Both the position numbers and the translations under genes were made by a program. Under the pieces are notes generated by a model. That model ran no database searches and had not been told where the DNA came from. It was given only the letters and a program-made list of their open reading frames with translations. Positions 660-46,520 of a stretch of 55,978 nt of DNA are shown in pieces. The stretch comes from a virus. Location of the stretch: positions 1 through 55,978 of IMG/VR virus record IMGVR_UViG_3300022413_000014. One strand, 5' to 3'. Positions within the stretch are counted from its first letter, which is position 1. The number at the start of each line of letters is the position of its first letter.

Positions 660-937
660 GCTTTGCTCTCCAGCATGGTGACCGCCATCGCGATCACATA
701 GGCGGCGGTGGCCGCAAGGTCGCGCCCGAACTCGCCGGTCCCGGCCCTGAACGCGCGGCTCTCATCAGGCTTGATGGCGCTGACCATGAAGGCATGGCCC
801 TCAATGCGATGCTTGGTGAGGCGCAGCCTGGCAGCATGAAAACGCTCGATGCTGTCCTTCAAAGTCGGGCCGCCCGTGATCTTTTCCTGCTCAGCAGCGC
901 CGGCCTCGTTGGTGATTTCGATGAGAAATTCAGCCAT
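656..937 (-). CDS. Hypothetical protein, 93 aa
   Basis: A 93-residue protein with no recognised family. The start was placed at the ATG at 937-935 because the open frame upstream is arginine- and tryptophan-rich and looks like a shadow of the neighbouring gene. The central part is charged and probably helical; the C-terminus is alanine-rich. It overlaps the 930-1214 gene by eight bases and ends in an ATGA junction with the next gene. Confidence 0.65.
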   Translation of the reverse strand: MAEFLIEITNEAGAAEQEKITGGPTLKDSIERFHAARLRLTKHRIEGHAFMVSAIKPDESRAFRAGTGEFGRDLAATAAYVIAMAVTMLESKA

Positions 938-1214
938 CGCCGTGCTCCTCCTCGGCCGTATCCACCCAGGCCTGAAGACGAGTGATGACGGCGCGTGCCA
1001 TGTCGACGTCCAGATGGGCTGACATGCACGAGTCCGGGTGGGTGCCACGGTCGTACCAAGACCGATCGTCAACGTTGAGCCAGCAGGCCACATGTTCAGC
1101 TGAGGACGAGTCGCGAACAGTCACGGTCGAGCCATAAAGGCAGGTGACCGGCTCCCCGTAATCGCGCAGGCCACGGTCGTTGGTGCATGTTATTTCGATG
1201 GTTTTCTGTGCCAT
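930..1214 (-). CDS. Hypothetical protein, 94 aa
   Basis: A 94-residue acidic protein with four cysteines scattered along the chain and no clear metal-binding spacing. ATG at 1214 is preferred over the GTG one codon earlier because GGGGAGG sits seven bases upstream of it. It directly follows the DnaA-like gene, whose stop overlaps its start. Function unknown. Confidence 0.65.
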   Translation of the reverse strand: MAQKTIEITCTNDRGLRDYGEPVTCLYGSTVTVRDSSSAEHVACWLNVDDRSWYDRGTHPDSCMSAHLDVDMARAVITRLQAWVDTAEEEHGDG

Positions 1215-1561
1215 CACGCCGCCTCCCCGGCCGCTCTAGCCACCTTAGCCGCATCGTTCTCCGCCCTGATCCTGATGACCTCGGCGCAACATTCGTCGGC
1301 AATCATCGAAAGGTCTGGGCGATTACGGACGCGCTTGACGCCATGCATGACGGTCGTATGGTCCTTGGTTTCGCTGTCACGCTCGCCTGAAAAGTGCCGG
1401 GCAATGTCCGGGTAGCTCATCCTGGTCATCGCCCTCAGCATGAACCACGTCACATGCCGAGCGTTGACATGCTCGCGGAGGCGACGACTGCCGAACACTT
1501 GATCCACGGTCACATCGAACCGGGCTGCGGCAATCGTCGCCATGGTTTTCAGCGTGATCAC
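1214..1561 (-). CDS. DnaA domain IV-like DNA-binding protein
   Basis: The 115-residue protein matches the C-terminal DNA-binding domain (domain IV) of the replication initiator DnaA and nothing else of DnaA. Seen: an Arg-rich helix after VFGSRR, a NARHVTWFMLRAM helix, the SYPDIARHFSG turn and the signature DHTTVMHGVKRV that contacts the DnaA box. There is no AAA+ ATPase domain. The basic loop has an insertion (GERDSETKDHTTV, where host proteins usually have GRDHTTV). The GTG start at 1561 overlaps the upstream stop (GTGA); ATG at 1543 is an alternative. It may bind DnaA boxes to steer or block initiation; that role is inferred. Confidence 0.88.
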   Translation of the reverse strand: MITLKTMATIAAARFDVTVDQVFGSRRLREHVNARHVTWFMLRAMTRMSYPDIARHFSGERDSETKDHTTVMHGVKRVRNRPDLSMIADECCAEVIRIRAENDAAKVARAAGEAA

Positions 1562-1887
1562 TCGGCTACGGTGGTGAGCGACGGCCGCAGACGATGGGCC
1601 TCGGTCACAGAAGCTGACGCGATATCAGTCGACGCCACCCAATCGAGAATGTGATCAACAACTCGATCAACAACCGCCGACGGGATGAACGTCTTGATCG
1701 TCAGTCCATCGCTCATCGGCATCAACAGTTCGTATCCACCAGGCTTGGTCGGTGTCTTCTTGACGCCGCGTACCTTGCACTTAGCCTCGCCGCCGATCAC
1801 GTCGGACAATGCGTCGGCAGCAGCAAGCAGCCGCGTCTTCTGCTCGGTCTCGGCGCGGATGTCGTCGGTGTTCTCCTTGTCGGTCAT
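1558..1887 (-). CDS. Hypothetical protein, first gene of leftward operon
   Basis: A 109-residue protein, Glu/Asp-rich at the N-terminus with a basic central patch (CKVRGVKKTPTK). No family recognised. The ATG at 1887 was chosen for its GGGAAG ribosome binding site rather than the upstream ATG of the open frame. It is the first gene after the operator-containing promoter at 1968-1996, which points to regulation by the phage repressor. Confidence 0.65.
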   Translation of the reverse strand: MTDKENTDDIRAETEQKTRLLAAADALSDVIGGEAKCKVRGVKKTPTKPGGYELLMPMSDGLTIKTFIPSAVVDRVVDHILDWVASTDIASASVTEAHRLRPSLTTVAE

Positions 1888-1927
1888 GGTCTTCCCTATC
1901 CAATATGGTTGACGATTAATCACAGCT

Positions 1928-1967: not shown

Positions 1968-1996
1968 TTTTTAATCACGGGTGACAAACTTGTCAA
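1968..1996 (-). promoter_or_regulatory. Leftward promoter overlapped by TGACAANNTTGTCA operator
   Basis: Reading leftward: TTGACA (1996-1991), 17-bp spacer, TAAAAA (1973-1968). The palindrome TGACAAACTTGTCA at 1982-1995 contains the -35 box, so a bound protein would exclude RNA polymerase. The same site covers the GTG start of the rightward gene at 1981. Confidence 0.65.
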
Positions 1997-2262
1997 GCAA
2001 GCAGCAGAACAAAAAGGCGTTGCGCGAAGCCCTGGCGGTCGTCGACCGGGAGCAGAATGTGGGATGGTCATTCGTGATGCCGGTGTCGATGTATGGCGAG
2101 CTTTTGCGCCTTTCCGAGCTGACTGAGCAATCGATGGCCTATTATGCGCGTGATGCCTTGATGCGATATCTATCGACCGACGAGCACATCGCACATATGC
2201 GCAAGCTCGAACTACGCGAAAAGCAGCGCCTAGCGTTGATCAAGAAGGCGTCTAGCCGATAA
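1981..2262 (+). CDS. Ribbon-helix-helix-like small regulator
   Basis: A 93-residue protein with a lysine-rich N-terminus and a central strand-helix-helix pattern (WSFVMPVSMYGELLRL, then TEQSMAYYARDALMRYL) that resembles the Arc/CopG/MetJ DNA-binding fold; the C-terminus is a charged helix. It stands alone, rightward, between two leftward operons. The frame opens with GTG at 1981 inside the palindromic operator. No good ribosome binding site precedes GTG, so either the message is leaderless from a TTTAAT-like -10, or TTG at 1990 is used with GGGTGA upstream. An autoregulator role is inferred from the operator position. The 3' end overlaps the HNH gene by 11 bases. Confidence 0.65.
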   Translation: MTNLSSKQQNKKALREALAVVDREQNVGWSFVMPVSMYGELLRLSELTEQSMAYYARDALMRYLSTDEHIAHMRKLELREKQRLALIKKASSR

Positions 2263-2766: not shown

Positions 2767-4170
2767 TTAGCGCTCTTTGATTTCCCTAACAGCAGGCCCT
2801 CGAACAATTACCAGCAGACGCTCATCATCGCTACCGACATTCTCCGCCGGTCCATAGCGCGCGTCGGTCACCTCGAACCAGATTTCGGCCTTACTCTTGC
2901 CGCCACGTAGGCCAACCTCGACCTTGTGAATGGTAGCCAGCCAGGAGCATTCGCGCTTGATGCCGTCCGACCAGAGATTTTTGCCCTCCCGGTTTTGCTG
3001 CAGCGCGATCACTAGGATCAGGTCGTTGGATTGGATAAACGCAGACAGCTTTTGCGCGACCTGCTCATAGAACGCGGCCTCGTTCTGACGTTGGGCCTTG
3101 CCGGCGATCTTGGTGTAGTAGTCGATGAAGAATACGCGGGTGCCGTGGTCGATCATCGATCTGTTCATGCGAATCAACAGATCATCGATCGTGATGCCCG
3201 GCACGTGGTCGAACTTGGCGTGCTCGAAATAGGGGTTGGTAACCGCCCAGGCATCGAGCCGGGCCACCGCCAGATCAGCGTTGGCCTTGTCCTCCAGCCA
3301 GGCCAGCGGCGTGTTGGTGTCGCCACAGAACTCACGGGCGACCAGATCGGTGGGGGATTGCTCTAGCGAGAAGAAATGGGTTTTGACGCCCGAGATCAGC
3401 GCGCCACGCTGCACGCCCGACAGCACGGAGGTCTTGTTCGACTTGGGTGGCGCGTCAAAGCCGTAAATGCAGCCGGGACGAAGCCCGCCGCCGAGCGCCG
3501 CATCGAGGCAGGCGTAGCCGGTGGAGACCTTGGGCGACGACTCCAGTAGTCTTTCCTTGAGGTGGTTGATCACCGTCATGCCATCCCACGAGCGATCATG
3601 CGGTTCGGTGATCGAGATGTCTTCGATGCTCGAGGTGATACGGTGCGCGATGCCCTTCCATTCGGACGCCACCGTCAGGCTGGGGTCCATGGCGGCGTTC
3701 AAGCCTTCCTGGCAGATCGCGGCAAGGGCGCGGCGCTGGGCCAAATCGAAAATCAGACGCGCGTAATCCTGGGTGTTGAGGATGGTGATTGCCGCTTGGG
3801 CGAGGCCTGCGAGATAGCGTGATCCATTGACCTGGGCAAGGCGCTCATCGGTCTCGAAGGCCGATGCTAGGGTGACATGATCCACCAGGAGGCCGTCTTG
3901 ATGAGTCTTGAGCATGACCTCGAAAATCGACTGGTGGACCGGCTCGTAAAAATGTTCAGGCTTCAAAAACTCAGCGGCATCAGCGAGGGTGGAGTCGTTG
4001 ACCATGATCGCACCAAGCAACGCCTGCTCGGCTTCGAGATTGTGCGGTGGCGCTTGAAAACCGAACGGCAGCCGGCCGTACGCTTCGCTGTCGGATGGGG
4101 TGTCGACCGGCTCAACATGGATGAGTCCGGGTTCAGCGACTCGGTTGCCGCCCTTGGTCTCGTCAGCCAT
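2767..4170 (-). CDS. DnaB-like replicative DNA helicase
   Basis: 467 residues, the usual length for DnaB. Residues about 37-145 match the N-terminal helical domain (NLEAEQALLGAIM onward); residues about 215-467 match the RecA-like ATPase. The Walker B region is RVFFIDYYTKI, and ALQQNREGK sits where DnaB has its SQLNR finger. The Walker A loop is unusual: APPKSNKTS, with Asn in place of the invariant Gly before Lys-Thr. It would unwind DNA at the phage fork. The gene follows the 4199-5302 replication protein, the likely initiator or loader. ATG 4170 has GGAG upstream. Confidence 0.93.
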   Translation of the reverse strand: MADETKGGNRVAEPGLIHVEPVDTPSDSEAYGRLPFGFQAPPHNLEAEQALLGAIMVNDSTLADAAEFLKPEHFYEPVHQSIFEVMLKTHQDGLLVDHVTLASAFETDERLAQVNGSRYLAGLAQAAITILNTQDYARLIFDLAQRRALAAICQEGLNAAMDPSLTVASEWKGIAHRITSSIEDISITEPHDRSWDGMTVINHLKERLLESSPKVSTGYACLDAALGGGLRPGCIYGFDAPPKSNKTSVLSGVQRGALISGVKTHFFSLEQSPTDLVAREFCGDTNTPLAWLEDKANADLAVARLDAWAVTNPYFEHAKFDHVPGITIDDLLIRMNRSMIDHGTRVFFIDYYTKIAGKAQRQNEAAFYEQVAQKLSAFIQSNDLILVIALQQNREGKNLWSDGIKRECSWLATIHKVEVGLRGGKSKAEIWFEVTDARYGPAENVGSDDERLLVIVRGPAVREIKER

Positions 4171-4198: not shown

Positions 4199-5302
4199 TC
4201 AAACTGCCTCTTCGGGCATCTCGAAAATCATGGTCTTGGCGAAGCCGTCGCTTTTGCCAAACTTATCGCACTCGACCAGCTTGACGCCGCTGCCGGCATA
4301 GTTGGGATCAACGCGCCAGCCCTGGCCGACGGTCAAGTTCCGGCCCCTGAACGGGAAGCTACGCCCGATGAGATCAGGCGGGCCGAACGGGGACGGCCTC
4401 TCGGCAGGCTTGCCGGGGTTGGGTCCAGGCAGGTCATCGGACCAGCAGGCCTGGTTCAGCCAGGTCTGTGGGTGCTTGACGTAGCGGGCTTCGGTCTGGT
4501 TGTCCCTGACATGCGCCATGTAGCGCTTGAGACCGGCCTCCAGCTCGTCCGCCGTGGCCAGGTTTTTGTCGATGATGCGCTTGTAGCATTTTTCAGCGGC
4601 TCCCCTTCCGCGTTTCATGCCAGGCCCCCAGAGATCCCACCAGCTGGAAAAATCAGCGGATGGATTAGGCGGTGGGGGATCGGGCACAACGGCCACCGGC
4701 CGCAATGCCACCACGGTATCATCGGCATCCGGGTCCGTCACCCAGTTTGGAACGTCCTCGTGATCAGAATCACGCCCGCCGTCAGGTGGGCAATGGTCGG
4801 GGAACAGATCACCGTTGGCATGGCCTGAACAAGAGTCTTTTTCGTCTTTACCGTCTATACCGTTTAGATTCGTTTGCCCTTTGCTTGCCCTTCGCTTGCC
4901 CTTTACCGTGCCCTTTTTCCCGAACACCTCGTCTAAGTCTATGGAATAGATAGAGATATTGTGCCTCGTAGTTTGCCCTTTACTTTGCCCTTTTTCGTGC
5001 CCATTCACTGCCCATTTTTTGGTGCTATTTTTGCGGCTAATCATGCCGATATTTTGCAGCCTATTGAGCGCTGTTCTGATGACCTTGACGCTATAGCCGG
5101 TGGCCTGGTGAAGACGCGTGAGCGACACGCAAACGTCACCACGATCGAGCATGAGCATCTGGCCGCTATAGTGCACCGGACGCGGCTTGTGGGCGCACAG
5201 CGATAGCAGCTCAACCATCACATATTTTGTCGCTGGGGGCAGGTAAGAGCAGTCGCTCGGGAACATGTAGCGGGGCACTTGAAAATACGGCTGATCGGAC
5301 AT
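4199..5302 (-). CDS. Phage replication initiator/organiser-like protein
   Basis: 367 residues. The N-terminal third is a winged helix (start PRYMFPSD, then DRGDVCVSLTRLHQATGYS and a recognition helix around VKVIRTALNRLQ). It is followed by a low-complexity linker with repeated KGQ/KGK/KGT units (about residues 104-150), then an acidic/proline linker. The C-terminal part (WWDLWGPGMKRGRG to HPQTWLNQACW) matches a domain common at the end of phage replication proteins. The likely role is origin binding and helicase recruitment, inferred from domain type and position before the helicase. The N-terminus resembles the 5305-5658 protein. Confidence 0.75.
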   Translation of the reverse strand: MSDQPYFQVPRYMFPSDCSYLPPATKYVMVELLSLCAHKPRPVHYSGQMLMLDRGDVCVSLTRLHQATGYSVKVIRTALNRLQNIGMISRKNSTKKWAVNGHEKGQSKGQTTRHNISIYSIDLDEVFGKKGTVKGKRRASKGQTNLNGIDGKDEKDSCSGHANGDLFPDHCPPDGGRDSDHEDVPNWVTDPDADDTVVALRPVAVVPDPPPPNPSADFSSWWDLWGPGMKRGRGAAEKCYKRIIDKNLATADELEAGLKRYMAHVRDNQTEARYVKHPQTWLNQACWSDDLPGPNPGKPAERPSPFGPPDLIGRSFPFRGRNLTVGQGWRVDPNYAGSGVKLVECDKFGKSDGFAKTMIFEMPEEAV

Positions 5303-5689: not shown

Positions 5690-5815
5690 CAGCCCCTTGG
5701 TTGGCCTGATGGCAAGCTAGCGACGGTCACCAAACACAAAAATCCGTCAATAGCATCAGACCAACCAAGGGGCTGGTGATCGTGTTTGGTGATGTCGCAC
5801 CCCTGCCAAAGGGTG
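5690..5815. repeat. Two interleaved inverted repeats plus a hairpin
   Basis: Arm A CAGCCCCTTGGTTGG (5690-5704) pairs perfectly with 5761-5775 and extends by CTGAT/ATCAG (5706-5710 with 5755-5759) across one mismatch. Arm B CACCAAACAC (5728-5737) pairs perfectly with GTGTTTGGTG (5782-5791). The order is A, B, A', B', a pseudoknot topology. A smaller CACCC/GGGTG hairpin follows (5798-5802 with 5811-5815). This lies in a 245-bp gene-free stretch at the head of the replication operon: a candidate origin or structured leader. Confidence 0.75.
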
Positions 5816-6501: not shown

Positions 6502-7009
6502 CGGCCTGCTCCATCAGGGTGCGCCAGTCGGCATCATTGGGGTGATCCCCGAGACGTGTTACAGCGATATAGACTGACGGCTCCAGTGCATAGAATTTCT
6601 TGATGGTCTGATCGACCACATAGGCGTCATCGACGAATAGAATTTTAGAAAGCGCATCCTCGATGCATTTGGTCAGATTGGTGAGATCGGGGCGCACGCA
6701 GGGGCGGATCAGGCCCTTACAGGCGGCCTTGCGCTTGCCCTTGGGCCAGGATCGCGGCACCTCAAAATAGTAATGCAGCATCAGATGAACCGATCCCTTG
6801 ATCGGCGGCAGGCCCGCCATTTTGGCCCTGGCCTGGGTAGCCACCACCTGCTGAAAGGCGGCGGTCTCGGGGTCTTTGTCAGAAACGATTAGATAGCGCC
6901 CTCGCCCTTTGGGGCGCAGCACCTTGGCGCGTTCTCGATAGGGAGTAGGCCGATCCCTGACGTTGAAGGAAACGAACTCAACGCCAGGGATCAGATTAGG
7001 TTGATCCAT
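6494..7009 (-). CDS. rusA: RusA-family Holliday junction resolvase
   Basis: 171 residues, close to the family's usual 120-170. The C-terminal half carries the RusA signature: RPDLTNLTKCIEDALSK followed by LFVDDAYVVD, with the acidic residues that bind metal and cut the junction. The enzyme resolves branched DNA made by replication and recombination, partnering the exonuclease and annealing protein at 9648-12202. ATG 7009 overlaps the DUF2303 stop (TGATG); the codon before it in the open frame is TTG. Confidence 0.85.
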   Translation of the reverse strand: MDQPNLIPGVEFVSFNVRDRPTPYRERAKVLRPKGRGRYLIVSDKDPETAAFQQVVATQARAKMAGLPPIKGSVHLMLHYYFEVPRSWPKGKRKAACKGLIRPCVRPDLTNLTKCIEDALSKILFVDDAYVVDQTIKKFYALEPSVYIAVTRLGDHPNDADWRTLMEQADG

Positions 7010-7827
7010 CAATCGGCAGTGGCATGCAGGAAGCTGACGCCGGTCTCCTCGAAGATCTTCATAGCGATCTGCTTCATGAACACCTCGACCGCCGCATCGA
7101 GCTGGTCGATTTCATGGGTGAAGAGCACCTTGCCGTTGTCTTCGACGTGTGGCCGAAGGATCACCCTCAACCCAACATCATCACCTTGGTTCTCGTAGAT
7201 CGGCACACCGATCTCGAACGAGCCTGGAATCTCAAGATCACCGTCCTTGCCACCGTGCAGCGTGATGCTCTCGGCATAGGCATGGCTGCCGGCCCCGGTA
7301 TGCTCATCGATCTCCTCGGAAAACTCGACATTGGCCTTGCCACGGATCGAGCGAATAATGCCTAGCAGATCAGACGACTCCGGCGTCACCACATCTCTGC
7401 GGTGACGCTCGATAAACAGCGCGTAATTCCTTGCGTTCATGCCAACATTGGAAGCATTCACCCAGGTCATCAGTCGTTTCGACGGGGACGGGGAGAACTC
7501 ATAGCGGTGCCGTTGCCAGGATGGCGCTTTCGGCTGCCTGGCGTCGATCACGGCTGTGAATCGTGCAAAGCTCATATCACTGCTGACTTCACGCTGCTCG
7601 ATGAAGCCCCGTGTCGCCTCGGTCTGAAAAACCTTGACCATCTCGATAAAGGACGTCACGCGCTGGCACGAAACGGAGGCTTTATGCGCGCGCGGTGCGG
7701 GAAGCAAGTGCTCCAAGGTCTGCGTCTTGTAATGATCAGGCAAAATCAGGAACGGCATCCCGTCGAGCGTGCGCAGCTCCTGATCCACGGTCAGGGCCTC
7801 GTGCTGGGCTTCAGTTTCTGTTTTCAT
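7009..7827 (-). CDS. DUF2303 family protein (YfdQ-like)
   Basis: 272 residues, matching in length and pattern the DUF2303 family found beside phage recombination genes. Recognisable parts are the N-terminal LDGMPFLILPD, the central FTAVIDAR segment followed by a tryptophan-rich stretch, and the C-terminal QLDAAVEVFMKQIA helix. The biochemical function is unknown. The start has GAGAGC upstream. It is followed with a one-base overlap by RusA, so both probably serve recombination or replication. Confidence 0.75.
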   Translation of the reverse strand: MKTETEAQHEALTVDQELRTLDGMPFLILPDHYKTQTLEHLLPAPRAHKASVSCQRVTSFIEMVKVFQTEATRGFIEQREVSSDMSFARFTAVIDARQPKAPSWQRHRYEFSPSPSKRLMTWVNASNVGMNARNYALFIERHRRDVVTPESSDLLGIIRSIRGKANVEFSEEIDEHTGAGSHAYAESITLHGGKDGDLEIPGSFEIGVPIYENQGDDVGLRVILRPHVEDNGKVLFTHEIDQLDAAVEVFMKQIAMKIFEETGVSFLHATAD

Positions 7828-39936: not shown

Positions 39937-40245
39937 CTAGTCGGGCTTGCCGTCACCGTCAATGTTTTCAGTCTGGGCGCTGTAAATCAGCCTGGGGCCT
40001 GCGCCGGGTTCCTCGATGTCCTCGCCCTTGGCGTGGCGGTGGATCTCATCGATCAGCCCTTTCAAGATGGTGATGTCATCATCAGACAATTCCGGGTAGT
40101 CCCTGACCGGCTGCATATGCTCATCGTCGACGATACCGCCATAGCGCACGCCCCACAGGGAATCGACGTAATAGACGCCCTCATGATCGGCGACATGGTT
40201 CAGATAGCGCTTCAGGAGGGATCGGTAATCAGTTTGATCAGTCAT
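39937..40245 (-). CDS. Hypothetical protein, paralogue of the 48398 gene
   Basis: 102 residues. DYRSLLKRYLNHVADHEGVYYVDSLW matches DYRELLKRYMANVEAREGVYFIEPGW of the protein at 48398-48673, and both end with a PxLSDxD segment. The two genes flank the portal and minor head genes on opposite strands. It overlaps the SPFH gene by eight bases. Function unknown. Confidence 0.65.
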   Translation of the reverse strand: MTDQTDYRSLLKRYLNHVADHEGVYYVDSLWGVRYGGIVDDEHMQPVRDYPELSDDDITILKGLIDEIHRHAKGEDIEEPGAGPRLIYSAQTENIDGDGKPD

Positions 40246-41167
40246 CGCTCACTCCGTTGACATAGGGCACGGCGTCGACGTCGTCGCCCTCGCCATGCGC
40301 GTGTTGATGCAGATGCTCGGCCGTGTCCAGCACGCGGTTGATGCCATTGCGCGCGGCATGGCTGTTGGCAAGGTTGGCATGGGCGATGAATTCACTGGGA
40401 ATGTCACCCTTGGCGACGGACTCGGGGTCCATGATGTTCGGGATCGGGCAGACCACGGTCGCGGCAGGGTTGGCTGCAATCGTCTTGAGCGTGCCCATCC
40501 AGCGCAGTTGCATGCCATGGGGGGAACTGCCGAGGATGTCAGCGGCCTCTGCGGTCATCTTGGCGGCTTCCAGCTCGCCCTGGGCGTCGATGATCCTTGC
40601 CCTGCGGTCACGTTCGGCCATGGCTTGCCGGGCGATGCTTCTGACCATCTGCTCGTCAATCTTGATCTCCTTGACTTCGACCGCGACCGTACGCACGCCC
40701 CATTCGGCTGTTCGGATAGCCAGCGCAGCCGTGACCTTGCGGCCCATGCCTTCGGTGTCGGCGATGTCGTCAAGGTCAGCAGATCCTATGCTGGCGCGCA
40801 GTACGGCCTGCGCCATTTCGGTCGTCGCCTTGCAGTGGTCCTCGGTCTCGATCACCGCCTTCTCACAATCCTCGACTTGGTAATAGACGACGCCATTGAC
40901 CCTCACCAAGACGTTGTCACGGGTCAGGATCTCCTGCAGCGGGATGTCGTCGACCATCTGCTGGACACTGACACGACGCGCCACCTGGACGGTGGGGACC
41001 ACAAACCGAAGCCCAGGCCCGCGTATGCCTTTGAACTTGCCAAGGCTAAGCACCACCAAGCGTTCGTATTGATCGACCACAACCGCCGAAAGCGCCGAGA
41101 TAATGGCCGCAAACAACAGCGCGATATAGATCACTCCCGCAGCATTGCTAAACATCCAATTAGGCAT
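40238..41167 (-). CDS. SPFH-domain (stomatin/prohibitin-like) membrane protein
   Basis: 309 residues from ATG 41167. One membrane helix (about 8-30), then a clear SPFH/Band 7 domain: VVDQYERLVVLSLGKFKGIRGPGLRFVVP, NVLVRVNGVVYYQV, the TEMAQAVLRASIGSADLDDI stretch and RTAEWGVRTVAVEVKEIKI, followed by a helical AQGELEAAKMTAEAADIL arm. The C-terminal tail has His-rich residues (HLHQHAHGEGDD). Host SPFH proteins (HflK/C, QmcA) form membrane rings and regulate proteases; a phage copy may disturb that or organise the membrane. That role is inferred. Confidence 0.88.
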   Translation of the reverse strand: MPNWMFSNAAGVIYIALLFAAIISALSAVVVDQYERLVVLSLGKFKGIRGPGLRFVVPTVQVARRVSVQQMVDDIPLQEILTRDNVLVRVNGVVYYQVEDCEKAVIETEDHCKATTEMAQAVLRASIGSADLDDIADTEGMGRKVTAALAIRTAEWGVRTVAVEVKEIKIDEQMVRSIARQAMAERDRRARIIDAQGELEAAKMTAEAADILGSSPHGMQLRWMGTLKTIAANPAATVVCPIPNIMDPESVAKGDIPSEFIAHANLANSHAARNGINRVLDTAEHLHQHAHGEGDDVDAVPYVNGVSDD

Positions 41168-41189
41168 CGATATCCATCCAATTAGGCAT
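41153..41189. repeat. Tandem duplication of 15 bp at gene junction
   Basis: CATCCAATTAGGCAT occurs at 41153-41167 and 41175-41189 with period 22. The copies carry the stop of the upstream gene and the start of the SPFH gene, so the junction may have arisen by duplication. Confidence 0.7.
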
Positions 41190-41517
41190 TCCAGCGCCCC
41201 CCATGGCTCATGATGCCCGCGCGCTGATCGGCCCTCCTGATGGCATCGAGCAGCAGCGCGCCGAGTACCAAGGCAGCGCTGATCAGGGCAAAGCCCCAAG
41301 CGCCGACGCTATTGACGGCAAGCGGCAGGGACATCAGGCACAGGGCGGCGGCCAGACCCGAGCGCCCCCAAGTCACAAAGCAGTCGATCCTAAAGACCAG
41401 CGCCATGACGATGACGGCAATCGCCAAGCCCGCGAACAGCAGCGCCCATAGGCCCTCATGGCCGAGCGACGCCGAAATCAGGATCAGATCGATGAAGGCG
41501 ATCACGGCGGACTTCAT
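41182..41517 (-). CDS. Multi-pass membrane protein, 111 aa
   Basis: 111 residues from ATG 41517 with four likely membrane helices (about 3-18, 24-43, 52-72 and 75-93). Its start overlaps the 41514 gene (ATGA) and its stop precedes the SPFH gene, so it belongs to a membrane operon. No family is recognised. Confidence 0.65.
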   Translation of the reverse strand: MKSAVIAFIDLILISASLGHEGLWALLFAGLAIAVIVMALVFRIDCFVTWGRSGLAAALCLMSLPLAVNSVGAWGFALISAALVLGALLLDAIRRADQRAGIMSHGGRWNA

Positions 41518-43827: not shown

Positions 43828-44064
43828 CTAGGGCTCATCAATCCATTCCTGGTATTCACCGCAGCATTCATGGAATGCGGTTATAGGCCAGATCGCCATG
43901 GGATATCGGCCTTCATTGGTCATAAAGGTCTTGCCGTCATGGATGACCGGGGCACGGCGACGGCAAAGCCCGTAGAACGGCCCACCGATCGGCGCTTCGT
44001 TCTGAACGCCTTCGAGTTCGACCTCATGCCAGAATCGGCAGGTGTCGCAGCATTCGCGCTTCAT
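43828..44064 (-). CDS. Cysteine-rich zinc-ribbon-like protein, 78 aa
   Basis: 78 residues with five or more cysteines (ECCDTCRFW at the start, GLCRRRAP mid, HECCGEY near the end), a likely zinc site. Its ATG overlaps the stop of the minor head gene. No family is recognised beyond the metal-binding pattern. Confidence 0.65.
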   Translation of the reverse strand: MKRECCDTCRFWHEVELEGVQNEAPIGGPFYGLCRRRAPVIHDGKTFMTNEGRYPMAIWPITAFHECCGEYQEWIDEP

Positions 44065-46520
44065 TCCAGATAATCCTCAGGATCAAGACCGGCGGCCAAA
44101 AACGCGTCCTTCTCCGTCTTGGCCAGCTCGGCAAGCGTAAGCGGTCGCCCGTGGCGGTCAACTAGCCTGCCGATCGATAGATTGCCCCTGCGGAACAGCC
44201 TGGACCGGGTCACGCCCAATAAGTTGCTCTGATCGGAAACGCTCAATCCGTTAAGAAAATCTTCTGACGACGGCACGCCGGGGATGCCGCCGACCTGTTG
44301 CCGGATGCTTTCACGCACGAAGCCATCGAAGCGTGCGCGCTGGCGCGCGGTGAGCTGACCGACCGAGCTGACCGGTTGCATGTTCTCGCGCCGGGTGAAG
44401 TCCCTGAGATAGCGGCGGCGCTCGTCTGACGTCAGTTGTTGCCGCACCAGCGCGGTGTTGGAGATGAACGGCACCCGCCGTGATCGGCAGTTGTGGTGGG
44501 CTGGAGGATATATTCCTTTTCCTGCGTCAAAAATCCTACCATTAAGGTCTAAGCAGATGTGGCTATTATGAGCAACCACCCCGCCGACGATAAAGCTATG
44601 ATCATCGGCTACTTCGATGTCATAGACGACCGCGCCGGCATTGACCGCCTCAACCCCGGCAACGGCAGCGTCATCTGGACATTCGTTCGTTTCGCTTCGG
44701 CCTGCATGTGACAGCGTCGACATCGCGTCGCCAGATTGCTCAACGCGTTCGCCTTCCGTGAATCCGTAAAGTTGTGGAACGGAATGATGTGGTCGACATC
44801 CAACGAACGCCCTGCCTCGGCTTTCTCCTTGGCCTCGGTCTTGCCACAGTCGACGCAAGTGTGGACATCCCGTTTCAAGACGCGCCGCCTGATAGCCTTC
44901 CAGCCGATGCCCCGAGCGCTCGACGTGCGACCGCCGCCTTTCCAGTTCGGATGAGCTTGTCCTGTGAAAGCCTTGCTGATCTTGTCCTTGCGCGCCTGGT
45001 TGTTTGACGTCCATGCACGATTGCATGCTTGCGAGCAGACCTTGCCGCCATTGTGCGCCACCATCGCCATGCCGAATTTGCGTTTGATCGGCTTGACCGG
45101 GGAAAACATGGCTCGGCAATTCACGCAACGGCGTGGCCTTGGCTTTTTGGCCGCCACCCGACAGGCATGCGAACAATATTTCTTCTTGGTTCCACCCGCC
45201 GGCAAGCGCTGCCCACAATGAGCGCATAAACCGCGTTGCTCGATCCGCCATTGATCGTAGCAAGCGCGCGAACAGAAAATCTTGTCTGACGCCCCGCTGA
45301 CCCGTGTCTGACAATGGCCGCGCAGGACTTCCTTGCCGCAGCGATGACACGCATTTCGATGTATGCGACGGCCCGCTGCCTTGCAGGCATTGCCGCAATA
45401 AGTTTGATGTGGATGACCTGAGAAAACGCGAAAGCGTTGACCACATGTCGCGCAGTGGCGATGATCGTTTGGCATGGGCGACTCCTCCAAAGTCATTCAT
45501 GCTCGCGAGGATCATCGTTTGTGCCGATGGTCCTCGCTGCGTTTTGGCAAGGCGGTCACCGTTCCTAAGCGTTCCGGCTTCCTGCCATGAGCCGTCAGGT
45601 CGAAGGAACAGATGATCGCTGGTGCAGGTAAAGCTTTCGCCATTGGCTAGCATCACGCGTACCAGATCATCACTATATTTCGCTTGCGTGGCCCGTACAA
45701 CCCGAGGCGCGCCGCTGCCGCCGATGACCAGGTCTCCAGGTTGTATCGTCTCTATGGGGCGTTTGCCAGTGGGCGTCTCGATCAGCGTGCCGGCAACAAA
45801 ACACGTCCTATCATCGAGCACGGCCGCCCAGATCTCTTTCTTGAACAGCCGCTTATTGGCCTCGGCGAACTCACGTCCGGCAGCGGCGGCGATGTGGGTG
45901 ACCGAAGTGCGCACGATGGTCTGCGCCTGGGCTCGGGTGATCTGGGTCGCGCCGTCACGACCGGCCAGCTCAGCGGTGCCGACGATGCGCGCAGCAATGG
46001 CGTTGACGGTCTCGCCCTGGGTTAGGCCGATGCGGATTTCGTTCATGATGCGGCGGCGCTCGTCCGCTTCAAGCAGCCGCGTCCAGTCCTTGAGGATACG
46101 GCCCTGAAACGGCCTCGACGTCACAATCTTTCTCAGCTCGGATGAGGTCGGCAGCCTGGCCGTAGTGCTGACCGGGGCCGCCATCTTGGTGAGGTTGGCG
46201 AGAAAGCGCGGCTCGTCCAGCGCGATGGCGCTGAGTTCGCCGGTCAGCTCATCCAAGAGACCGCTAAAGGCAGGCGACCTGACCTTCTCGATCGTCTGCT
46301 CCAGGCGGGAAAGGCGCTGGCGTGCCGTCCGGTCTAAAGCGAAGCCACCGCCCGCTGACGACTGCAGCGGCGCGGTCTTGGCGATGATCTGGTCCTTGAG
46401 GTCGCGCTCGGTCCTTTGCAGGTGATTTAGGATCTGGGAGCGCATCCGATTCGACACCCGTACCAGGCCGATCTGACGCCTGATGCTGCTGTCTAGGATG
46501 ATCTCGTTGGCCGTTGGCAT
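44061..46520 (-). CDS. Minor head protein (MuF/SPP1 gp7 type) interrupted by an intein
   Basis: 819 residues in one open frame. Residues 1-239 and 653-819 are the head protein: helical N-terminus, AQTIVRTSVTHIAAAAGREFA, then AVLDDRT joined after splicing to SHICLDLNGRIFD and the PPAHHNCRSR zinc-type motif of MuF proteins. Residues 240-652 are an intein (see next entry). The spliced product would be 406 residues. MuF proteins sit in the head near the portal and help assembly or DNA entry. Location beside the portal fits. Confidence 0.85.
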   Translation of the reverse strand: MPTANEIILDSSIRRQIGLVRVSNRMRSQILNHLQRTERDLKDQIIAKTAPLQSSAGGGFALDRTARQRLSRLEQTIEKVRSPAFSGLLDELTGELSAIALDEPRFLANLTKMAAPVSTTARLPTSSELRKIVTSRPFQGRILKDWTRLLEADERRRIMNEIRIGLTQGETVNAIAARIVGTAELAGRDGATQITRAQAQTIVRTSVTHIAAAAGREFAEANKRLFKKEIWAAVLDDRTCFVAGTLIETPTGKRPIETIQPGDLVIGGSGAPRVVRATQAKYSDDLVRVMLANGESFTCTSDHLFLRPDGSWQEAGTLRNGDRLAKTQRGPSAQTMILASMNDFGGVAHAKRSSPLRDMWSTLSRFLRSSTSNLLRQCLQGSGPSHTSKCVSSLRQGSPARPLSDTGQRGVRQDFLFARLLRSMADRATRFMRSLWAALAGGWNQEEILFACLSGGGQKAKATPLRELPSHVFPGQADQTQIRHGDGGAQWRQGLLASMQSCMDVKQPGAQGQDQQGFHRTSSSELERRRSHVERSGHRLEGYQAARLETGCPHLRRLWQDRGQGESRGRAFVGCRPHHSVPQLYGFTEGERVEQSGDAMSTLSHAGRSETNECPDDAAVAGVEAVNAGAVVYDIEVADDHSFIVGGVVAHNSHICLDLNGRIFDAGKGIYPPAHHNCRSRRVPFISNTALVRQQLTSDERRRYLRDFTRRENMQPVSSVGQLTARQRARFDGFVRESIRQQVGGIPGVPSSEDFLNGLSVSDQSNLLGVTRSRLFRRGNLSIGRLVDRHGRPLTLAELAKTEKDAFLAAGLDPEDYLE
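44565..45803 (-). mobile_element. Intein in the minor head protein, with a nested HNH gene
   Basis: The intein starts with Cys240 (TGT, 45803-45801) and ends with Asn652 (44567-44565), followed by Ser. Block A is CFVAGTLIETPTGKRPIETI, block B holds TSDH in GESFTCTSDHLFLRP, block F is VYDIEVADDHSF and the end is VVAHN-S, all hallmarks of protein splicing. Between blocks B and F the frame runs open across the HNH gene but its translation is low-quality, with no nuclease domain. The insertion point is the conserved DDRT-SHIC active region of the MuF domain. Confidence 0.9.
44609..45475 (-). CDS. HNH homing endonuclease nested out of frame in the intein
   Basis: 288 residues in a frame shifted +1 from the intein. 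ATG 45475 follows GGAGGA at ideal spacing. The protein has at least four Cys-x2-Cys zinc units (CATCGQRF, CHRCGKEV, CAHCGQRL, CVNCRAMF) and a C-terminal HNH core: CVDCGKTEAKEK, then DVDHIIPFHNF and CRRCHMQAE. It would cut intein-less alleles so the element spreads. The last residues overlap intein block F. In usual inteins the nuclease is in frame; here it is a separate, overlapping gene. Confidence 0.88.
   Translation of the reverse strand: MPNDHRHCATCGQRFRVFSGHPHQTYCGNACKAAGRRIHRNACHRCGKEVLRGHCQTRVSGASDKIFCSRACYDQWRIEQRGLCAHCGQRLPAGGTKKKYCSHACRVAAKKPRPRRCVNCRAMFSPVKPIKRKFGMAMVAHNGGKVCSQACNRAWTSNNQARKDKISKAFTGQAHPNWKGGGRTSSARGIGWKAIRRRVLKRDVHTCVDCGKTEAKEKAEAGRSLDVDHIIPFHNFTDSRKANALSNLATRCRRCHMQAEAKRTNVQMTLPLPGLRRSMPARSSMTSK

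Follow-up and report, generated by a model that had tools for sequence, protein, structure and literature searches.

A stand-alone DnaA domain IV protein encoded in a phage replication operon, and its possible DNA targets

A DnaA domain IV gene in a phage operon

Which DNA would a phage protein read if it consisted of the box-binding part of DnaA and nothing else? The question is raised by an open reading frame at positions 1214-1561 (minus strand, GTG start, 115 aa) of a 55,978-nucleotide viral sequence (IMG/VR record IMGVR_UViG_3300022413_000014), the whole of which is referred to here as the window. In a six-frame scan this frame is the sole match of the window to Bac_DnaA_C (PF08299; E 1.2e-16). 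It overlaps its neighbours by four bases on both sides, at its start orf121 (1558-1923, minus strand) and at its end orf95 (930-1217, minus strand; weak match to phrog_3849), and its codon-position GC (0.59/0.48/0.74) is similar to that of neighbouring genes. Thus, as far as these features of the sequence can tell, it is very likely a genuine gene and part of an operon. Orf121 is not DnaA-like; it could be assigned to neither a Pfam nor a PHROG family, and it matched no phage record.

The operon is one of replication genes: upstream in the same orientation are those for an HNH endonuclease (2252-2755) and a phage DnaB-type replicative helicase (2767-4170), both assigned by Pfam/PHROG, and a phage replication initiation protein (4199-5302; phrog_270), which has a homologue in the related phage G026; all three are on the minus strand. 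A small protein encoded on the opposite strand (1981-2262, plus strand) is 29% related to a ribbon-helix-helix-like protein of G026.

Domain identity and the missing ATPase domain

The protein scores 57.4 bits against PF08299, for which the curated cut-off is 31.5, and its nearest solved structures by sequence are DnaA proteins (3pvp, 1j1v and 8btg). An AlphaFold2 model built from a 34-sequence alignment has a mean pLDDT of 94.1 and contains six helices (residues 4-14, 19-23, 29-46, 50-57, 68-80 and 82-114). DnaA domain IV spans approximately residues 1-100, and the last of the helices is a longer C-terminal one. With VIA-align the model superposes on 3pvp (Z 14.1, 92 residues, 1.4 A) and on 1j1v (Z 13.7, 90 residues, 1.5 A), both of which are complexes of domain IV with DNA. 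DnaA DNA-binding domains are at the top of the Foldseek plus VIA-align ranking, where the best non-DnaA entry has a Z of 6.6. The preliminary description of the protein as DnaA domain IV alone is borne out by the Pfam score, the model and the Z values of about 14. Its identity as a stand-alone DnaA box-binding domain is therefore well supported, and we infer that it binds DNA, probably in a sequence-specific manner.

An ATPase domain had also been reported as lacking, and this holds for the entire window: PF00308 (AAA+ ATPase domain III) has no match at E<=10 in any of the six frames, in a search that was positive in 14 of 14 control genomes. Against the NCBIfam DnaA equivalog TIGR00362, which has a cut-off of 343.9 bits, the protein reaches 52 bits. 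A split or frameshifted DnaA was considered and rejected; as PF00308 is missing from all six frames and the upstream orf121 matches nothing, a DnaA broken by sequencing error appears unlikely.

DNA-reading residues and a six-residue insert

According to PMC5043019, the basic loop connects helices 2 and 3 and contains E. coli R399, and the base contacts of E. coli DnaA are at positions 399, 423, 432-435 and 438-439. Alignment with 1j1v places these contacts at R27, P51, K66, D67, H68, T69, M72 and H73 of the window protein, of which six of the eight are identical and two are conservative replacements (R432K and L438M). The basic loop GSRRL (residues 24-28; 1478-1492, minus strand), in which R27 is the equivalent of R399, carries no insert. 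The recognition helix region (residues 66-80; 1322-1366, minus strand), located by alignment and model, starts with KDHTTVMH, which is also the motif in many full-length DnaA proteins of the alignment. The presence of this motif agrees with the earlier view that the DnaA-box-binding signature is intact. Judged by these residues, an ordinary DnaA-box preference is the simplest expectation for the protein, which the insert described below may modify.

The preliminary description had placed a five-residue insertion in the basic loop. However, this loop is of ordinary length, and the extra residues are six in number and lie in the helix-turn-helix turn ahead of the recognition helix. Relative to the FGG-type DnaA loop, the insert ERDSET (E60-T65; 1367-1384, minus strand) is found between G59 and K66 in an alignment with 33 other domains (13 from phages and 20 chromosomal, out of 80 fetched). 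In the model it follows helix 4 (50-57) and precedes the recognition helix (68-80), and residues 61-70 are the block of lowest confidence (mean pLDDT 77). The insert is present in one of 38 phage domain rows, in a profile whose underlying alignment includes many of its own hits and in which several rows are near-copies. A pattern match over all loci gave a span of 16-17 residues in 127 places; the longer matches besides that of the window protein are apparently misplaced pattern starts or unrelated proteins. As the insert has a net charge of -2 and abuts the recognition helix, DNA affinity or specificity may have changed. Through the insert, the contribution of the turn ahead of the recognition helix could be tested cleanly.

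Stand-alone domain IV proteins in other phages

Rarity had been implied for such a protein, which is incorrect, as domain IV-only proteins are common in phages. PF00308 is missing from 34 of 35 phage records, all chosen for having PF08299, and the window protein likewise has domain IV without PF00308. The exception with an ATPase domain is MT835859, a full-length frame of 437 aa from an unverified human faecal clone. A DnaB_C helicase is found in only three of the 35 records. Annotated records with the gene include phages of Rhizobium, Octadecabacter, Pelagibacter and Microcystis, and two Bradyrhizobium phages. Among the best 50 matches of a structure search of viral proteins, most are about 90-200 residues long; many, from uncultured phages, are named 'Chromosomal replication initiator, DnaA C-terminal', and Cellulophaga phage DnaA proteins also occur. 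Phage proteins with the 'DnaA C-terminal' name are mostly of this length (about 90-200 aa) and are often encoded in early or replication/recombination regions.

A0A6J5M868 (BFVD/UniProt) and R9ZYL7 of Cellulophaga phage phi19:3 resemble the window protein in having the domain IV fold without an ATPase domain, as do Pelagibacter phage HTVC204P gp23, Octadecabacter DB virus 2 gp52 and Rhizobium phage RHph_N28_2 EVB88_078. The viral structure matches are 14-30% identical to the window protein, and the phage members of the 33-domain alignment 22-30%; the window protein differs from this phage kin in its own six-residue insert. With chromosomal DnaA domain IV (1j1v and 3pvp) it has in common the fold and the base-contact residues; unlike full-length DnaA, it has no domains I-III, and it carries the insert and the longer C-terminal helix. 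The PRK06030-type small bacterial proteins (NCBIfam NF004686-NF004688, 'hypothetical protein') are also short, and their models weakly match some of the phage domain IV relatives, whereas the window protein gives no match to them at E<=0.01. A 'replication initiation protein DnaA' is listed for a Polaribacter phage in PMC4615864. Our literature search found no tested function for any phage domain IV protein. Stand-alone domain IV proteins of phages are thus known, widespread and named by homology, and the window protein adds one with an insert otherwise absent from the domains compared.

No close homologue of the exact window protein, and no relative with the same insert, was found in the viral contigs, phage records and genome contigs searched, and a 34-row family tree left the protein without placement. 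Among the genome-contig matches listed, 77 of 80 lie in frames of at least 300 aa. The viral and genome scans were mostly driven by the pattern KDHTTVM(H). The invariance of this motif among the relatives is thus built into the search, which under-samples proteins with a different recognition helix; G026 and G031 came to light by other routes. The lack of a close homologue and the fast divergence among relatives are what might be expected if the gene were left over from a captured host dnaA, as a remnant that is degenerate or neutral. However, the frame is open, with four-base overlaps on both sides and normal codon-position GC, the recognition signature is intact, and the recurrence of a stand-alone domain IV across nearly all of the phage records points to a kept function, so that a remnant is improbable.

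Two Acinetobacter 'phage' records (H9 and H10) were left out, the H9 region being a bacterial dnaA-dnaN-recF-gyrB locus, and Salmonella and Campylobacter records (H58-H62) are outside the comparison. L130 (CAKLQH020000026.1), filed as Acinetobacter phage MD-2021a, shows such a bacterial dnaA-dnaN-recF-gyrB region and looks like host chromosome.

Phage origin and DnaA boxes

A candidate phage origin is found inside the initiator gene, as an array of iterons with the core AAAGGGCAM (4872-5008, minus strand). Five exact copies of this core fall at 4874-4993, and the rest of the window has one more, with 0.6 expected. The iteron core AAAGGGCA is arranged in two clusters, and core and layout are conserved in G026 (L147, 11976-12201), where the 12-base repeat AAAGGGCACGTC forms two clusters, also within the initiator gene. 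In lambda-like origins, iterons lie inside the initiator gene and are read by that initiator. By analogy, the array is likely to be the phage origin and the initiator its reader.

Boxes of the form TTWTNCACA are absent from the window (1.5 expected), an absence no greater than chance would give. Near-boxes number at most one per 300 bases, without any cluster, and none is found in the iteron region. Among 36 phage sequences that carry the gene (the window plus 35 loci, of which L131 proved to contain a full-length DnaA and most are 4-12 kb rather than whole genomes), one has clusters of near-boxes, versus 10 of 16 chromosomal dnaA loci (hand-picked from 80) given the same treatment. The test is thus able to see an oriC. 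Sites with no more than one mismatch to TGATCCACA/TTATCCACA number 24 in the window, against 17.5 expected; 24 was reached in six of 100 shuffles, and no cluster is apparent by eye. Across 31 sequences TTATNCACA occurs 10 times (6.9 expected). No CtrA-type sites (TTAA-N7-TTAA) were found, and Rfam gave no match.

A phage origin composed of canonical DnaA boxes is disfavoured, since there is neither a TTWTNCACA box nor a box cluster and the iteron array is the better candidate. Binding to a phage origin was one of the two roles suggested at first for the protein, and as far as it would proceed via DnaA boxes it is disfavoured for the same reasons, the iteron array being common to the window and G026. 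The absence of boxes also argues against self-directed binding via canonical boxes, but it is no proof of a host target, as it does not exceed chance and the window is probably incomplete.

The protein could still assist at the phage's own origin, as an accessory that acts with the initiator or with the helicase on the iteron array. Domain IV genes are found in or beside the replication modules of several unrelated phages: in the Rhizobium phage RHph_N28_2 the gene adjoins DUF1376, in MW202613 it adjoins a replisome organizer, in G026 it lies downstream of the initiator, and in G031 it is about 1.3 kb from a DnaB-type gene. However, the iteron region has no near-box for such a protein to read, box clusters are far scarcer in phage sequences with the gene than at chromosomal dnaA loci, and, if lambda-like origins are a guide, the iterons already have an obvious reader in the initiator encoded around them. 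An accessory role at the origin therefore seems unlikely.

Between ORFs at 5690-5775 there is a long inverted repeat with 22-base arms (95% complementary), the fold of which has a z of -8.9 versus shuffles.

Domain IV in the relatives G026 and G031

G026 is the closest relative found for the window phage, with a capsid that is 81% identical and homologues of the initiator (26%), the HNH protein, the opposite-strand small protein and the DUF2303 protein, in a largely common order. Its syntenic replication module encodes a domain IV-like protein between the initiator region and the HNH gene, which scores 24.7 bits with Pfam (below the cut-off) and is recognized by profile comparison (E 4e-6, probability 87%). 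Counted against the E. coli letters, two of the eight contacts are kept in this protein: in the alignment of the 38 phage rows R399 is replaced by Y, P423 by T and the motif KDHTTVMH by RDTSAVRD. Thus, this lineage can do without box reading. G031, found via its helicase, encodes another domain IV protein with the recognition motif REHATVLW. In G026 and G031 the replication modules retain the fold but box reading changes, which supports a general DNA-binding role more than a fixed host-box role. An inverted repeat TATCCAGAGG/CCTCTGGATA (L142, 2538-2570) was seen by eye in the region beside the opposite-strand gene of the relative.

Host or phage DNA as the target

A further reading is a role on phage DNA away from the origin, in which the domain IV fold would be reused by a transcription regulator whose specificity has changed to suit a phage operator, possibly in the divergent region 1916-1985 before its own operon. 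Recognition residues drift among relatives, and full-length DnaA is described as an activator or repressor of transcription in PMC8203912. The window has three TTAATCAC sites, of which two (1916-1923 and 1971-1978) fall within this divergent region at a distance of 55 bases, beside a promoter-like match. However, these sites are weak evidence, as three were found against 0.6 expected and they differ from TTATCCACA in at least two positions, and the promoter scan gave three matches against 2.5 in shuffles, which is no excess. Moreover, the contact residues of the window protein are those of a normal box reader, and a phage regulator with shifted specificity is a somewhat doubtful reading.

The reading that we tentatively prefer, at a little less than an even chance, is that the window protein competes for DnaA boxes in host DNA. 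Replication of the phage appears to rely on an iteron origin, an initiator and a helicase of its own, and since the known phage sequence has no canonical boxes, an intact box reader would most likely find its targets among the DnaA boxes of the host chromosome. With the box-reading residues kept but without domains I and III, the protein would not be expected to bind ATP, form a DnaA filament, open DNA or recruit helicase. At oriC and at promoters under DnaA control it would instead be a competitor of host DnaA, and the effect would be slower host initiation or shifted cell-cycle transcription during phage replication. After this host-DNA competitor, we place the phage regulator with shifted specificity second, followed by the less likely role at the origin. 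A wider version of the competitor reading, in which phages have repeatedly trimmed DnaA to its box reader as a decoy against host DnaA and the reshaped helix-turn-helix turn here tunes affinity or box choice, is speculative and rather improbable.

If host boxes are the target of stand-alone domain IV proteins, these would be a direct and simple viral off-switch for host initiation and DnaA-controlled genes; if phage DNA is bound with shifted specificity, they would provide a natural collection of DnaA readers with alterations. In both cases, a function would be gained for a gene family that is present in many phages and has so far been named by homology alone.

The window also encodes a DUF2303 protein (7009-7827; Pfam), a family to which we take YfdQ of E. 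coli to belong. As a route to relatives, this protein led to nothing. Prophage genes that lower host initiation are known from the E. coli cryptic prophage CPS-53 (YfdQRST), according to PMC4776307, which prints DUF2302. YfdR binds DnaA domains I-II (PMC4776307) and is not itself a DnaA domain, whereas the window protein is one.

Phage affiliation and completeness of the window

The structural proteins point to a siphovirus group of Proteobacteria, presumably the PaMx25/chi-like phages. The window (1-55978) has no terminal repeat, and no terminase (PF03237 or PF17289) was found in it, though portal and capsid are present. Thus, the record is probably incomplete. A 353-aa protein encoded at 40238-41299 has a SPFH/stomatin-like look by eye, with a weak match to phrog_200. 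The MuF-like head gene at 44061-46520 contains what we take to be intein motifs. It apparently holds an intein, with a 295-aa HNH-like ORF inside (44609-45496) on the same strand in another frame.
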